Part shown: positions 5,680 to 28,673 of the stretch, piece by piece
Layout of the letters: every line of letters begins with the position of its first letter
How positions within the stretch are numbered: position 1 is the stretch's first letter
Source: a virus
Length of the DNA: 58,036 bases
Virus record (IMG/VR): IMGVR_UViG_3300028840_000318
Coordinates: 1-58,036 of that record
Direction: 5' to 3' (one strand)
The notes under the pieces: model-generated
Database searches by the model: none
Seen by the model: the letters and a program-made list of their open reading frames with translations, nothing else
What the model was told of the DNA's origin: nothing
Position numbers and translations under genes: made by a program

Positions 5680-5877
5680 TTATTTTTCAAGCTGTTCAAT
5701 TATCCGGTCACCATAACGGTTCAGCGGGAAAATGTCAAAGTGCGTGGCGTCACCCTTGGCAATCCTTGACCGGCACGCGTCAACTTCAACCGTGGCACTT
5801 AGCAAGCCACGGTTGCTGACGTCAAGCAACAGGCGTTTACCATTCCACAATTTGATTCTAACGTCATATGGCTGCAT
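5680..5877 (-). CDS. Hypothetical protein, 65 aa
   Basis: Starts MQPYDVRIKL. The ATG at 5877 lies inside the end of the radical SAM gene (14-bp overlap) behind GGGTGG; a longer version reading 147 bp further into that gene is unlikely. Looks like a small alpha/beta domain. No known motif. Confidence 0.62.
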   Translation of the reverse strand: MQPYDVRIKLWNGKRLLLDVSNRGLLSATVEVDACRSRIAKGDATHFDIFPLNRYGDRIIEQLEK

Positions 5878-6709
5878 AATTACCACCCAACAACTGACCA
5901 CAGGCGGCTTGTATGCTTGCGCCGTCAGTTCTGTAACGTTCCACCACCATGCCACGCCTGCGTAACTGCATGGCAAGGCGTGCAACGGTCTTTTCAGCAC
6001 TTGGCTTGAAGAACACCGTGCCAATGGGGTTGTATTGCGTCAACTTGATTGTCATGCCTTTGAAATATCGGGCCACTTCAACGGCTTCAAGGGCTGTGTC
6101 ATTTATGCCCATGATTGGCATGAAATTCAATTCAATTTGGTCTTGGCTGAAGCCAAGCGCAAACATGTGTTCAACGGCATACAACAGGTTGTTGAATTGT
6201 GGTGCAGGGTTGCCAAACAGGTTGCCGCGCACGTGCCACCTGACGGCATGAAGTGACAACTGCACCTTGAAGGCTTTTGGGTCAACCGTGCCTTGCGCCG
6301 CAATGATGGTTTTGACAAAATATTCAAGTTTTGGCACCATTGTTGCAAATGCCAAGCGGTTGCCGCTTTCAATCATCATTTTGACATATTCAGAAAAATA
6401 CGGGTTCAAGGTTGGTTCACCCACGCCCATGGCTGAATACAACAGCGGCTTGTCATGGCCGGTCATGGCGTGGCAGTTCATCATTCTTGACGTCTGCACA
6501 ACAAGTTCATCAGCGGTCAGGTTGCGCACAAAGCGGCCAGCACGGCAGAAGCGGCAGGCCATGGGGCAACCAATCTGCGTTGAAAGGCACACAATGTTCT
6601 TTTCAGGGCGTTGGACAAAGACGGCTTCAACGTCACGGTCATCATGGGTGGTGAAGACCACCTTGGTGGCGGTCTTCTTCCGGTTCTTCTTCAGGGTCAC
6701 AGGTTCCAT
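5864..6709 (-). CDS. Radical SAM methyltransferase of the RlmN/Cfr family
   Basis: A 281-aa protein with every RlmN/Cfr hallmark I can check: CxxxCxxC iron-sulfur site (C48, C52, C55), the extra cysteine seven residues before it (C41), a GVGEP motif, a SLHA motif and a C-terminal AACGQL with C270, the partner of the methyl-transfer cysteine pair. Family members methylate C2 (RlmN) or C8 (Cfr) of adenine in 23S rRNA or tRNA. At 281 aa it is about 90 residues shorter than bacterial RlmN and lacks most of the N-terminal RNA-binding domain. The ATG at 6709 lies one base after the upstream stop, behind AAGGTGA. The phage substrate is unknown. Confidence 0.88.
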   Translation of the reverse strand: MEPVTLKKNRKKTATKVVFTTHDDRDVEAVFVQRPEKNIVCLSTQIGCPMACRFCRAGRFVRNLTADELVVQTSRMMNCHAMTGHDKPLLYSAMGVGEPTLNPYFSEYVKMMIESGNRLAFATMVPKLEYFVKTIIAAQGTVDPKAFKVQLSLHAVRWHVRGNLFGNPAPQFNNLLYAVEHMFALGFSQDQIELNFMPIMGINDTALEAVEVARYFKGMTIKLTQYNPIGTVFFKPSAEKTVARLAMQLRRRGMVVERYRTDGASIQAACGQLLGGNYAAI

Positions 6710-6710
6710 A

Positions 6711-7598
6711 TTATTCACCTTCCTGGGCCTTGGCAATCAGGCGGTCAATGGTCTTCAGGTGCGCGTTCTCTTGGTCAATGACGGCCTGCAAGGCAATGGG
6801 GTCACGCACGCCGTCAATCTGTTCTTCAATCAGGTCTGCAATGTACGTTGGCGTCAGGGCGTCAAGTTCCCAACTTTCACGGCCATACCGCACAATGTAA
6901 CCTTCTGCCCTGCTATCGGTCAACTTTGTGGGGTTTGGTGGCGGGCCAATTTCATCCACCTGGGGCATGTTCAGGGCAATGCGCCTGACTTCCGTGGCGT
7001 GGCAACCAAACAGCTTCAGGCGGTCACTAATGTCACGGGTCATGTCAATGCCGCTTGGGTCATGGTCACCCAGGTGCAGCACCAACGGCCAAAGCCCTTG
7101 GTCTTCATACTGGCGCAAGCGCATGGCCGCGTTCCACAGTTCTGATTGGCTTGTGTATCCACGGCAACTGAAAAATGCCACGTCATTGCGGTTGCATGGC
7201 TTCTGAATGACGCCAACCAAGGCGTCTTTTTCAATCCACACTTCAACGCGCCGTTCCTGGCCCTGCCAACGGTCCATGAAGAAGCTGTTTTTTGCTGCCC
7301 GCATAACCTGGGAAGGCGTCAGCCAATGGCTTCTTGCTTTCAGGTTGCGGGTGCGGTCAACAACAGCGTTCCATGAAATCAAACCGGCAAGCCTGCCGTC
7401 ACTGACAATGCTGCCAAGGCGCTTGTAATTGCGTTGCTTGTTTTCAAGCCACCCACGGGCAACAAACTGGTAATACAATTGGCGCAAGGTCAGGTCAAAG
7501 CCCTGGCCCGCATATTCATCAATAATGTCATTGGCCTGATTAATGATTGAAAGGCTTGAAGCTGCAAAGCGTTTTTCAATGTACGCAATGTGTGTCAT
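6711..7598 (-). CDS. Toprim protein resembling TopoVI-A/Spo11
   Basis: A 295-aa protein. The Toprim acidic residues are clear: E123 in VWIEKDAL and D178/D180 in HLGDHDPSG. Ahead of them residues 35-85 (TLRQLYYQFVARGWL, then DGRLAGLISWNAVVDRTR) look like the winged-helix part of TopoVI-A/Spo11 proteins. No B-subunit (GHKL ATPase) partner is visible here. It might cut DNA, act in recombination or initiation, or be a conflict-related nuclease. It is co-transcribed with the radical SAM gene (1-bp gap) and overlaps the upstream gene by 4 bp. Confidence 0.75.
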   Translation of the reverse strand: MTHIAYIEKRFAASSLSIINQANDIIDEYAGQGFDLTLRQLYYQFVARGWLENKQRNYKRLGSIVSDGRLAGLISWNAVVDRTRNLKARSHWLTPSQVMRAAKNSFFMDRWQGQERRVEVWIEKDALVGVIQKPCNRNDVAFFSCRGYTSQSELWNAAMRLRQYEDQGLWPLVLHLGDHDPSGIDMTRDISDRLKLFGCHATEVRRIALNMPQVDEIGPPPNPTKLTDSRAEGYIVRYGRESWELDALTPTYIADLIEEQIDGVRDPIALQAVIDQENAHLKTIDRLIAKAQEGE

Positions 7599-7795
7599 TT
7601 GGCTTGCTCCTTTTCTTTATTGTCAAACATCACCAGCACGTCAACATTGCCACAGATGAAGTCAAGCGTGTCAACATACTGCACGTCAAGGTCACCATGG
7701 CAACGTGCAATCACCTTGAAGCGGTCACGGTACACGTCACGTGCAGAAGACCAAAAGGCCACCGGCTTGCTGCACATTTGGCACATAATTTTCAT
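7595..7795 (-). CDS. Small CxxC protein, 66 aa
   Basis: C5-x2-C8 and C32-H33 suggest a small zinc site. Family not recognised. It overlaps both neighbours by 4 bp (ATGA), so it is translated as part of the 8286-to-5680 operon. Confidence 0.65.
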   Translation of the reverse strand: MKIMCQMCSKPVAFWSSARDVYRDRFKVIARCHGDLDVQYVDTLDFICGNVDVLVMFDNKEKEQAK

Positions 7796-8286
7796 TTTTT
7801 GCCTGCTTCCATTTCCAAAAGGGTTACCATGCGGTTAATGCGTTCCTGACGGTCAGCCACGTGATATGGCAAGCGGGCAACAATGCGCCCACTGTTGTCA
7901 GTAATGACCACCGTTGAATTGGGTGGCACAGCGTCACCGTCACGGCTTCTGCGCCACGTCTTGCCCTGGGCTGTGCGTATGCTTGGCATGAAGCGCACAA
8001 CCGGCCTTGGTGCTTCTTCCACTTCCCTGGGCTTGAAGCTTTCAGGGTTCTTGTTGATTGAGTAAAAAACCGCCCGCGTGCCGTTGGTCTTGCGGTCTTT
8101 GGCCAGCACCACGCCATTGGCACACAGGTTTTCAAGTTGCTGCCGCACCTGTGCCGCCGTGAAGCGGTCAACGCCAATGGCCTTGTGAATTTCCACGCGT
8201 TTGGGGTTGCCCAGGAAGGCCACGGCCTGCCGCACTTCTTCACGTAATGCCAACACTTCATGCTTCTTCAGTCTTTTCAATGGCAC
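7792..8286 (-). CDS. Winged-helix DNA-binding protein (putative regulator)
   Basis: A 164-aa protein with a GTG start 8 nt after GGAG. Residues 20-75 look like a winged helix (RVEIHKAIGVDRFTAAQVRQ, then LCANGVVLAKDR and FYSINKN), as in small phage transcription factors. The C-terminal half is basic and flexible, ending in a short helix. First gene of the operon with the Toprim and radical SAM genes. What it binds is unknown. Confidence 0.6.
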   Translation of the reverse strand: MPLKRLKKHEVLALREEVRQAVAFLGNPKRVEIHKAIGVDRFTAAQVRQQLENLCANGVVLAKDRKTNGTRAVFYSINKNPESFKPREVEEAPRPVVRFMPSIRTAQGKTWRRSRDGDAVPPNSTVVITDNSGRIVARLPYHVADRQERINRMVTLLEMEAGKK

Positions 8287-11755: not shown

Positions 11756-11946
11756 TTTTCCACCTTGACCATGTAACGGAAAAGCCAAAGGAAGATGAAG
11801 CGCACAAAGCTGACGCGCACCCATTCACCACCTTCCGTGGTTCCAAAGTAACGGTTCACAAAGCTGTTCTTGTATCCATAGAAGCGCATACCAAAAAGCC
11901 CTTCACCAAAATAAATGCGTGTTCTTCTGAAGGCTGAAAGCTTCAT
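11752..11946 (-). CDS. Small basic protein, 64 aa
   Basis: Starts MKLSAFRRTR, with the ATG overlapping the ThyX stop by 4 bp. Rich in Arg, Phe and Tyr; a C-terminal hydrophobic run (FVRFIFLWLFRYMV) could be membrane-associated. Not recognised. Confidence 0.6.
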   Translation of the reverse strand: MKLSAFRRTRIYFGEGLFGMRFYGYKNSFVNRYFGTTEGGEWVRVSFVRFIFLWLFRYMVKVEK

Positions 11947-12638
11947 TGCTTCACCCAAAAGCAGTGGTCAGGAAGGTCTTCAAAAAATTCAGGGTATGCC
12001 GTCAAAAGCTGATTGCCTGCTAACCGCATAAGGTGCCTAATTTGCGGGTGCGCTGCCTTGGCCGTTCTTTGCTTCAGCACGTGCCGCCACTGCCGGAAGT
12101 TGTACGTTGTGCATATTTCCGTTTTCAGGGCGTTGCCAAGCACTTCACGGGCCTGTTCAGGCTTCCAACCGGCCTGAAGAAGCCAACCATAGCTGCGTTC
12201 ATCATCCAGGCAGGCGGCAACAAATAAATATTCAGCTTCTTCTTGTGGCGTCTTCTGCCTGTGGTTGAATTTAATGACTTTTTCAAGGTTCCATTGGCCA
12301 AGATGCACGTCATTCACCCAAACGGGCAAAATGAATTGCATTGGCCCGCCACCATAATTGACATAACGGGTTGACTCTTGGCTGTAAGCTGCAATTCTAT
12401 GGCGCACCATTTCATGCGTCACGCTTCTGTTGGTAATGAAGCGCACGGTTGCACACAGGTGTTCAATGACTGAAAGGTGGCCGCTTTTGATAATGCGCTT
12501 GATAAAGGCGGCAGCACTGTCAGGCGTCTTCTTTGCTTCTGACTTGTAACAGGTGCGGCCAATGTCTTCCACAGCCCTGGCGGCTGCATGGCGTTCCGGC
12601 CCAACTTCAAGAATGGCTTGCTGTTTAATTAATTCCAT
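11943..12638 (-). CDS. thyX: Flavin-dependent thymidylate synthase
   Basis: A 231-aa protein matching ThyX in length and motif: R79-H80-R81 followed after seven residues by S89 and then R91. The first serine of the longer RHRxxS form is alanine here. The enzyme makes dTMP from dUMP with methylene-tetrahydrofolate, FAD and NADPH. The ATG at 12638 follows AAAAGGGAGCAACAGC. A ThyX-like paralogue without this motif lies at 28182-28673. A dNMP kinase lies three genes upstream, so nucleotide supply is a theme. Confidence 0.93.
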   Translation of the reverse strand: MELIKQQAILEVGPERHAAARAVEDIGRTCYKSEAKKTPDSAAAFIKRIIKSGHLSVIEHLCATVRFITNRSVTHEMVRHRIAAYSQESTRYVNYGGGPMQFILPVWVNDVHLGQWNLEKVIKFNHRQKTPQEEAEYLFVAACLDDERSYGWLLQAGWKPEQAREVLGNALKTEICTTYNFRQWRHVLKQRTAKAAHPQIRHLMRLAGNQLLTAYPEFFEDLPDHCFWVKQ

Positions 12639-12820
12639 GCTGTTGCTCCCTTTTCTAAGGTTGAAGAAGCCCAGGGGTGACGCACGCACTGCCCACCGAC
12701 CAAAGTTTGACAGTGCGCCCAAACGCTGCACCCCTGGGCAATATAAGTTGCCCAAGGTTGACCGTTCCGGCGGGCTCCTTTTTCCCACCTTCCCCAACGG
12801 CCACCCTTGGGCGTTCCCCT

Positions 12821-17052: not shown

Positions 17053-17925
17053 CTATTGGTTCAGGATGAAGTCAGCGGCTTTTTGCGCCCTGGCAGCGGC
17101 CTGAATGACCATCTTGGGTTGGTCTTTCAGCTTCTTTGACCATCCGTGAATGTATGCAGCGCTGTTGTCCAGGGTTTTGTTTTCAATTCCGGCCACGCCA
17201 CACAGAAAACATGCAGTCATTTCAGCGGTCAGTTCTTCATGGCTGTATGACTCTGAACCAAAGGCTGCAAGCGGTTCATCAACCTTGAAGCGGTTCAAGC
17301 GGCTGTGGTGGCCAGTGCTGTGGCCAAGTTCATGGAATAAGGTGCTGTAAAATTCAGCGTTGCCTTCAAAGTCTTCAATCTTGGGGTTTTTCACAATGTC
17401 CTTTGCCGGAATGTAACAGGCAGCGCTTCCACCAAACTGAATGACGGGTGCGTTGGGCATGTTGGCCACAATGGCTTCACAAGCTTCAATCGGTTCCGGC
17501 ACTTCAACTTCTTCCTGGCCGTCAACCTTGGGTTCTTCCAGGCCGTCACACTGTTCAATATTGAAGACCGTGTAATACCGCAAAATGAAGGTCTTTTTGA
17601 TTTCTTTTTCGCCGTCTTCATTTTCAATTTCTTTGTCTTTGATGTTCCAAAAGACCACCTGCGTGCCACATTCACCCTTGCGCACCTGACCGCCCTTGGT
17701 CTTGGCCTGTTTGTAGGTCACCCAATAGGGTGAAGCGTAACCATTTGACAGTGCGGTAATGGTCAACAGAAAAGGGTTGATTCCACGGTAAGGCTTGCCA
17801 CTGACCAAGTTTTTGTGTGCGCCACTGGCTGAATTCCAAGGCTTGTGCCAGGGAATGACGCCCTTTTCCAACTGGTCAATAATCTTGTCAGTAATCATCT
17901 GATAAACTTTGTTTGCCTGTGCCAT
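17053..17925 (-). CDS. ArdC-like anti-restriction protein (ssDNA-binding domain plus zincin metallopeptidase)
   Basis: A 290-aa protein with the two-domain ArdC layout. The N-terminal part (KVYQMITDKIIDQLEKGVIP through GKPYRGIN) matches the ssDNA-binding domain, and a zincin-like peptidase follows with H198-E199-x2-H202 in FHELGHSTGHHSRLNR. Plasmid ArdC protects incoming DNA from restriction. It has a strong promoter, the GGCATGTGCC leader and an upstream operator pair, which suggests tight early control. Confidence 0.82.
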   Translation of the reverse strand: MAQANKVYQMITDKIIDQLEKGVIPWHKPWNSASGAHKNLVSGKPYRGINPFLLTITALSNGYASPYWVTYKQAKTKGGQVRKGECGTQVVFWNIKDKEIENEDGEKEIKKTFILRYYTVFNIEQCDGLEEPKVDGQEEVEVPEPIEACEAIVANMPNAPVIQFGGSAACYIPAKDIVKNPKIEDFEGNAEFYSTLFHELGHSTGHHSRLNRFKVDEPLAAFGSESYSHEELTAEMTACFLCGVAGIENKTLDNSAAYIHGWSKKLKDQPKMVIQAAARAQKAADFILNQ

Positions 17926-27868: not shown

Positions 27869-28195
27869 CTATTCACTGACGCCGTTGGCGTTGTGCTTCT
27901 TCCAATCACGTTGAAACACTGACGCACACGTGTCTTCAATTATGCTTTCAATGTCAAATTCCATGCCGTTGCAAAAGGCCATTAGATACACAAAAATGTC
28001 ACCAACAGCGTCTTTCATGTTGGCCACGTGGTCTTCATTGCCACGGATACCCTGCAAGCTTTTCAACCGTGCGTGTGACAGTTCACCAAGTTCTTCTTGC
28101 AGGCCAAGCAACATCAGGTTGGGGTCAATTTCAGGGCCAAAGTTCTTCACGCTGAAAGCTAACTGAAGCGCCTGAAGTTCTCTAATTGTTTTCAT
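27869..28195 (-). CDS. MazG-like nucleotide pyrophosphohydrolase
   Basis: A 108-aa protein with E34-E35-x2-E38 and K61-D62-x3-D66 (KDAVGDIFVYL), the MazG/all-alpha NTP-PPase metal site. Phage versions hydrolyse (d)NTPs or ppGpp-like alarmones or clean up unwanted dNTPs. The ATG at 28195 lies 9 nt after GGAG. It overlaps the ThyX-like gene by 14 bp. Confidence 0.75.
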   Translation of the reverse strand: MKTIRELQALQLAFSVKNFGPEIDPNLMLLGLQEELGELSHARLKSLQGIRGNEDHVANMKDAVGDIFVYLMAFCNGMEFDIESIIEDTCASVFQRDWKKHNANGVSE

Positions 28196-28673
28196 TTGCA
28201 AGTTCTCCAAAAAGTTGTGTCATCATGTTCTTGAAGAAGTTACGCAAGAACGGGCATTTTTGATGGTACATAAAAAGAATCTTCCAGGCGGGCAGGCTTC
28301 CAATAATGGTGCAGACGTGTGCCACGTTGGAAGGCAACACGGTCTTGGCTTCTTGCGGCTTCATGCCACCGTTCAACAGCATCATGTATGCCTTTTCACA
28401 ACGTTCCATTGTGCGCTTCCAAATATGCTGTTCATTGGGAAGCCAATCACGGAAGTTGACCGGCTGCACCATGCGCATGGTGCCGTTGTCCGTCAGGTCA
28501 ACATATTCAATCAACAGTTCAGGTGCAAAGTGGTGCCAAGCGGCCATGTGGTCAGTGCGGTACTTATGCACCAAGGTCACCCAATCCCGTTCATCCATTA
28601 TGCACCTGAAGCCAACCGTGCCGTCATCCGGTTGAATGTCAAGACGTTCAACACTTCTTTTAATTATTTCCAT
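28182..28673 (-). CDS. ThyX-like paralogue lacking the catalytic signature
   Basis: A 163-aa protein. The stretch AYMMLLNGGMKPQEAKTVLP, then WKILFMYHQK resembles the ThyX C-terminal half, and the phage ThyX has the matching YGWLLQAGWKPEQAREVLG. However, no RHRx7S motif is present. It might be an inactive scaffold, a partner subunit, or an altered enzyme acting on a modified nucleotide. Start at 28673 behind AGGAGCAAAGTAA. Confidence 0.6.
   Translation of the reverse strand: MEIIKRSVERLDIQPDDGTVGFRCIMDERDWVTLVHKYRTDHMAAWHHFAPELLIEYVDLTDNGTMRMVQPVNFRDWLPNEQHIWKRTMERCEKAYMMLLNGGMKPQEAKTVLPSNVAHVCTIIGSLPAWKILFMYHQKCPFLRNFFKNMMTQLFGELANENN

Follow-up and report, generated by a model that had tools for sequence, protein, structure and literature searches.

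RlmN and Cfr serve as the model for how unreactive carbons of adenine are methylated by a radical route, and a short relative of theirs is encoded in a viral DNA record of 58,036 nucleotides (IMG/VR record IMGVR_UViG_3300028840_000318; the whole of this stretch is called the window below). The question raised by the locus is what a phage might do with an enzyme of this kind that has no N-terminal accessory domain. A minimal core with a full catalytic set would show the purpose of that domain, and a phage "mini-RlmN" would indicate a hitherto unstudied means by which phages change host RNA. Literature searches turned up no work on RlmN-like enzymes encoded by phages; database entries already label some of them COG0820 or RlmN. 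Our preferred reading, given about an even chance, is that the gene, carried as an accessory gene, encodes a stand-alone adenine methyltransferase that uses methyl-cysteine radical-SAM chemistry and recognises RNA in a changed way. Within this reading the predicted radical methyl-transfer chemistry is well supported by the residues that are kept, and the substrate and role are inferred.

The gene and its setting

The RlmN-like frame lies on the minus strand of the window (5864-6709), running from an ATG at 6709 to a stop codon at 5864-5866 and encoding 281 amino acids; translation of the same interval on the plus strand meets many stops. The original prediction named no strand. Codon scoring of the frame is clearly positive, and its codon use is phage-like. 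The start is preceded by a good Shine-Dalgarno sequence, AGGAAGG TGAATAAT ATG, and this region (6710-6727, minus strand) falls inside the gene upstream, at its 3' end. That gene encodes a 295-residue TopoVI-A/Spo11-like protein (6711-7598, minus strand) and stops one base short of the ATG of the RlmN-like frame. The pair belongs to a close-packed string of minus-strand genes at the non-structural end. Two further upstream ORFs of 66 and 164 amino acids (7595-8286, minus strand) are part of the same string, with 4-base overlaps, and a small downstream ORF of 65 amino acids (5680-5877, minus strand) has its ATG among the final codons of the RlmN-like frame.

Family, fold and catalytic residues

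A search of the NCBIfam profiles placed the protein closest to RlmN (TIGR00048; E 9.3e-33, 113.6 bits), with the alignment covering profile positions 73-343 of 355, and phmmer against the solved structures of the PDB returned only RlmN proteins, then Cfr. Together these put the match to RlmN far beyond chance, and the original prediction of an RlmN/Cfr-like radical SAM enzyme holds. The score falls short of the TIGR00048 equivalog cut-off of 290 bits. The general radical SAM family (PF04055) gave 24.4 bits, under its gathering score of 29.5, and the Cfr profiles (TIGR04432/NF000424) gave 65.9 bits against cut-offs of 550/530, which are not reached. An AlphaFold2 model of the protein is of modest confidence (pLDDT 57, pTM 0.58); its six best PDB matches, the sole significant ones, are all of RlmN type, with 6fz6, 4pl2 and 3rfa the best.

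The catalytic residues listed in the original prediction are all confirmed by alignment. C41, C48, C52, C55 and C270 correspond to C118, C125, C129, C132 and C355 of E. coli RlmN, and to C105, C112, C116, C119 and C338 of CfrA. C41 and the [4Fe-4S]-binding CX3CX2C motif (C41 LSTQIG C48 PMA C52 RF C55) are encoded at 6545-6589 on the minus strand, and C270, the counterpart of the methyl-accepting cysteine of E. coli RlmN, lies within an AACGQL motif encoded at 5891-5908 on the same strand; the MGVGEP and QLSLHA motifs are present as well. Of 42 core positions that are near-invariant in a set of 11 RlmN/Cfr proteins, 33 are kept, among them every cysteine, E105, GEP, SLH, N286, N312 and CGQL; relatives that have lost one or both methyl-transfer cysteines keep 24-29 of the 42. 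The earlier expectation of catalytic completeness thus gains by this comparison, and the phage protein is, as predicted from its kept residues, a catalytically complete cousin of RlmN.

The absent N-terminal domain

Only 40 residues precede C41, compared with 117 before the equivalent cysteine of E. coli RlmN and 104 in both Cfr(A) and Cfr(D), a shortfall of approximately 77 residues relative to E. coli RlmN and 64 relative to Cfr. The absence noted in the original prediction is real, and its size is 64-77 residues, not the roughly 90 first estimated. No different start restores the N-terminus: a TGA 10 codons 5' of the ATG closes the frame, the sole alternative start, a TTG, adds just 9 amino acids, and the frames upstream of the ATG hold nothing but the intact 3' end of the TopoVI-A-like gene. 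Since the profile match begins at position 73, the frame is closed upstream and an intact gene abuts the start, the accessory domain is, as read from the DNA, truly absent from the window protein. Structure prediction of the 40 residues that remain, which had been proposed as a check, gives strands (pLDDT 71-82) within the model of modest overall confidence.

Substrate recognition is regarded as a likely task of the N-terminal accessory domain of Cfr, and a shortened Cfr isoform without it makes no contribution to resistance (PMC8752094). In our comparison, the domain was poorly conserved even among true RlmN proteins, with one nearly invariant column, and its loss may therefore matter less for target choice than has been assumed.

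Short relatives in phages and plasmids

That short RlmN-like proteins are a recurrent phage and plasmid type was missed in the original prediction. A scan of IMG/VR with the motif QxGCP[MV][AG]CxFC yielded 26 contigs, the proteins of 24 of which match the window protein; most are about 276-338 amino acids long, with 41-69 residues before the C118 equivalent. The short form recurs in phages of 33-460 kb and also on plasmids. Named phages that carry it are Salmonella phage Arash, Aeromonas phage Ahp1, Vibrio phage 166E36-1 and LR756500; entries B3FJU2 (phage 201phi2-1) and A0A6J5RTK8 of the fold library, and phrog_27142, are of the same form. The window protein shares no more than about 30% identity with any relative found. 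Close relatives were not found by single-protein scans of viral or genome collections, by motif scans or by a multi-family alignment query, some of which used exact patterns, so that closer relatives may exist.

Several other matches were set aside. Some phage RlmN matches in the databases are host contamination, the Klebsiella and Acinetobacter records in question showing an ndk-rlmN-rodZ-ispG neighbourhood (the window is unaffected); full-length RlmN proteins in faecal "phage" records are host-like; and a SPASM radical SAM match (L158) is unrelated.

Most of the short phage proteins form one clade (support 99/97, 23 members), and in that tree the window protein falls outside it. Members of the clade resemble the window protein in the missing N-terminus and in keeping both methyl-transfer cysteines; they differ from it in their QFSVHE motif and GQDDIGGGCGQLW ending, and are at most 29% identical to it. 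In most of the unrelated phages found, the protein lacks the N-terminus and keeps the cysteines, so the short form is probably a selected form and not a damaged gene. This bears on the view that the window gene is a captured host rlmN, truncated by recombination and now decaying, to which the missing N-terminus and the status of a singleton among sampled relatives would be well suited. We consider decay highly improbable: the frame is intact and has its own Shine-Dalgarno sequence, with a start one base past the upstream stop; codon use is phage-like and the catalytic residues are all kept; and many unrelated phages share the same truncation.

The nearest relative by identity is a protein from a plasmid of Variovorax sp. 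RA8 (WP_162590546), also of the short form, which shares the pattern LSLHAxRxHVRxxLxGNxAP with the window protein. On this 425-kb plasmid (positions 2902-3711 of locus L322) the cluster motif of the protein is kept and the equivalents of C118 and C355 are both lost. A plasmid protein of Acidiphilium multivorum (WP_174501885) is likewise of the short form and has a tyrosine where C118 is expected. In the Pseudomonas jumbo phages RVTF4 (L008, 3034-3927) and D6 (L009, 2908-3801) a short RlmN-like gene directly follows a tRNA array, and in both proteins a tyrosine replaces C118 and also the histidine of SLH. Both methyl-transfer cysteines are lost in the crAss-like phage Kehishuvirus tikkala (L366, 2336-3124) and in Vibrio phage D479 (L367, 2339-3184), whose proteins pair in the tree (100/99). 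Losses of this kind suggest that methyl transfer could have been abandoned in the window lineage too, in favor of another radical reaction or of dependence on a partner protein: the Variovorax protein, its nearest relative, is without both cysteines, as are the tikkala and D479 proteins. The window protein retains both, together with AACGQL, and a departure from methyl transfer seems quite improbable for it.

Placement among RlmN and Cfr proteins

In the best trees, which sample just 11 RlmN/Cfr sequences, the window protein falls outside that sample on a long branch. It joins the Variovorax plasmid protein with support of 93/89 in one tree and 85/76 in another, a join that may be false, both being long branches. 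Cfr(A) and Cfr(D) pair together among the RlmN proteins, and the window protein does not group with them. Trees in which it is forced together with RlmN/Cfr survive the AU test (p 0.052 and 0.233), as does one in which it is forced into the short phage clade (AU p 0.054). An ordinary place in a host RlmN clade, with the N-terminus restored by another start, had been named as the finding that would overturn the original prediction. No start restores it; the placement outside RlmN/Cfr, for its part, is not significant at these AU values. Overall, the window protein is not an ordinary host RlmN, and it is not the only one of its kind; in the best trees it forms a separate long-branched lineage.

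The same results bear on whether the protein functions simply as an RlmN, making m2A at 23S A2503 and/or at A37 of some tRNAs without the N-terminal domain and so topping up the modification in infection. RlmN is the best profile, the catalytic residues are all kept and the AU test does not reject a grouping with RlmN/Cfr (p 0.233). Its 113.6 bits are far under the cut-off, the accessory domain is missing and the long branch lies outside the RlmN/Cfr sample. Recognition by these enzymes is also demanding, since nearly all swaps of segments between RlmN and Cfr abolish activity (PMC4689488). On balance we regard a plain RlmN function as unlikely.

The carrier phage

The window is a virus record whose structural and replication genes are YuA-like, which bears out the phage origin first assigned to the gene. 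Similarity to Pseudomonas phage MP1412 (genus Yuavirus) is seen in the portal, major capsid (77%), terminase, tail, primase and polymerase genes; the carrier phage is related to Pseudomonas phage YuA and lies near Yuavirus/Mesyanzhinovviridae. The RlmN-like gene is absent from 46 records related by major capsid protein, many of which are fragments, and a gene missing from a record says less than one missing from a genome. The best explanation is that it is a lone accessory gene among the relatives of this phage, picked up by it.

No tRNA genes were found in the window. A linkage of short RlmN-like genes to tRNAs was hinted at by RVTF4, D6 and one contig (L038); a control that compared near and far positions in 20 records did not bear it out, with tRNAs near the gene in 4 of the 20 and far from it in 3 (19 vs 19 tRNAs). 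Elsewhere the window encodes an ArdC-like anti-restriction protein with ArdcN and MPTase-PolyVal domains (17053-17925, minus strand), and this one phage has both a full ThyX and a second, partial ThyX-like ORF (11943-12797 and 28182-28673, minus strand).

An adenine of the phage DNA or of the nucleotide pool might also be modified, as a form of anti-restriction chemistry. We find this improbable: none of the RlmN relatives known to us acts on DNA, the window proteins that were scanned include no recognised modification gene set, and the 46 records of related phages are without an RlmN-like gene. The phage does have the ArdC-like gene and ThyX, and the protein lacks an RNA-recognition domain. 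Modified DNA is a known trait of Yuavirus-type phages. The idea is kept because DNA modification is reported in Mesyanzhinovviridae (PMC11946847), near which this phage lies.

The TopoVI-A/Spo11-like neighbor

The gene upstream of the RlmN-like frame matches a DNA topoisomerase family (phrog_6247, E 1e-104). The AlphaFold2 model of its product (pLDDT 86) has TopoVI-A, 1d3y, as its sole significant PDB match, with poor superposition (TM 0.39), and the Toprim and catalytic tyrosine motifs are both present, GDHDPSGIDM and R-Q-x-Y-Y-Q being invariant. The protein seems to be a counterpart of the viral "Mini-A" proteins that PMC11302465 cites. The gene occurs in at least 584 viral loci with varying neighbors, and in isolates is often near ThyX (relatives L078-L157).

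Co-transcription with this gene had been put forward as needing explanation. The two genes are indeed adjacent, but the pairing does not recur: there is no RlmN-like gene within 10 kb of 84 other loci of the topoisomerase gene or in 47 whole records of those loci, and the topoisomerase gene is found in 0 of 26 records with RlmN-like candidates. It is present in 2 of the 46 records whose major capsid protein links them to the window phage, and the gene that follows it differs across the 20 loci inspected. Many of all these records are fragments, which makes the absences weaker evidence. A conserved RlmN-topoisomerase module is thus rejected, for want of recurrence in the sampled loci and records; with no RlmN-like gene at the other loci and a downstream gene that varies, the adjacency is positional only and, as far as sampled, incidental.

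Proposed function

To return to the preferred reading, a stand-alone adenine methyltransferase with changed RNA recognition, C270 would first be methylated by one molecule of SAM. A second SAM, cleaved at the [4Fe-4S] cluster, would yield a 5'-deoxyadenosyl radical; activated by it, the methyl would add to an adenine ring carbon, C2 or C8. C118 of RlmN is the resolving cysteine, and C41 would resolve the covalent adduct here. This course is modeled on RlmN/Cfr chemistry (PMC5130265, PMC4689488). Altered recognition is proposed because the accessory domain, which helps RlmN and Cfr recognise RNA, has been lost naturally; the target may be an RNA whose presentation differs from that of naked 23S A2503, and would most likely be a translation-apparatus RNA, of host or phage, acted on during infection. 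Precedent for rRNA modification by a phage enzyme with a partner protein comes from a phage rRNA methyltransferase of a different family, which needs a second subunit to direct it to 16S rRNA (PMC10810198). A broader and more tentative proposal is that a minimal RlmN core, freed of the domain for RNA recognition, has been retained by phages time and again, forming a family of adenine C-methyltransferases that serve new nucleic-acid substrates during infection, of which the window protein would be one independent lineage.

Comparison with RlmN and Cfr

Among known systems, the window protein is closest to RlmN (TIGR00048; PDB 3RFA from E. coli, 6FZ6 from Sphaerobacter), its best match in both sequence and fold. 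The two share the radical-SAM core, CX3CX2C, both methyl-transfer cysteines, and the GEP, SLHA and CGQL motifs; the phage protein differs in the missing accessory domain, with some 77 residues fewer than the E. coli enzyme, and in a score of 113.6 vs 290 bits. Cfr, which confers resistance to many ribosome-targeting drugs, has the same core and cysteines as the window protein, which differs from it in a weaker profile match (65.9 bits to TIGR04432 and NF000424) and in being 64 residues shorter at the N-terminus.
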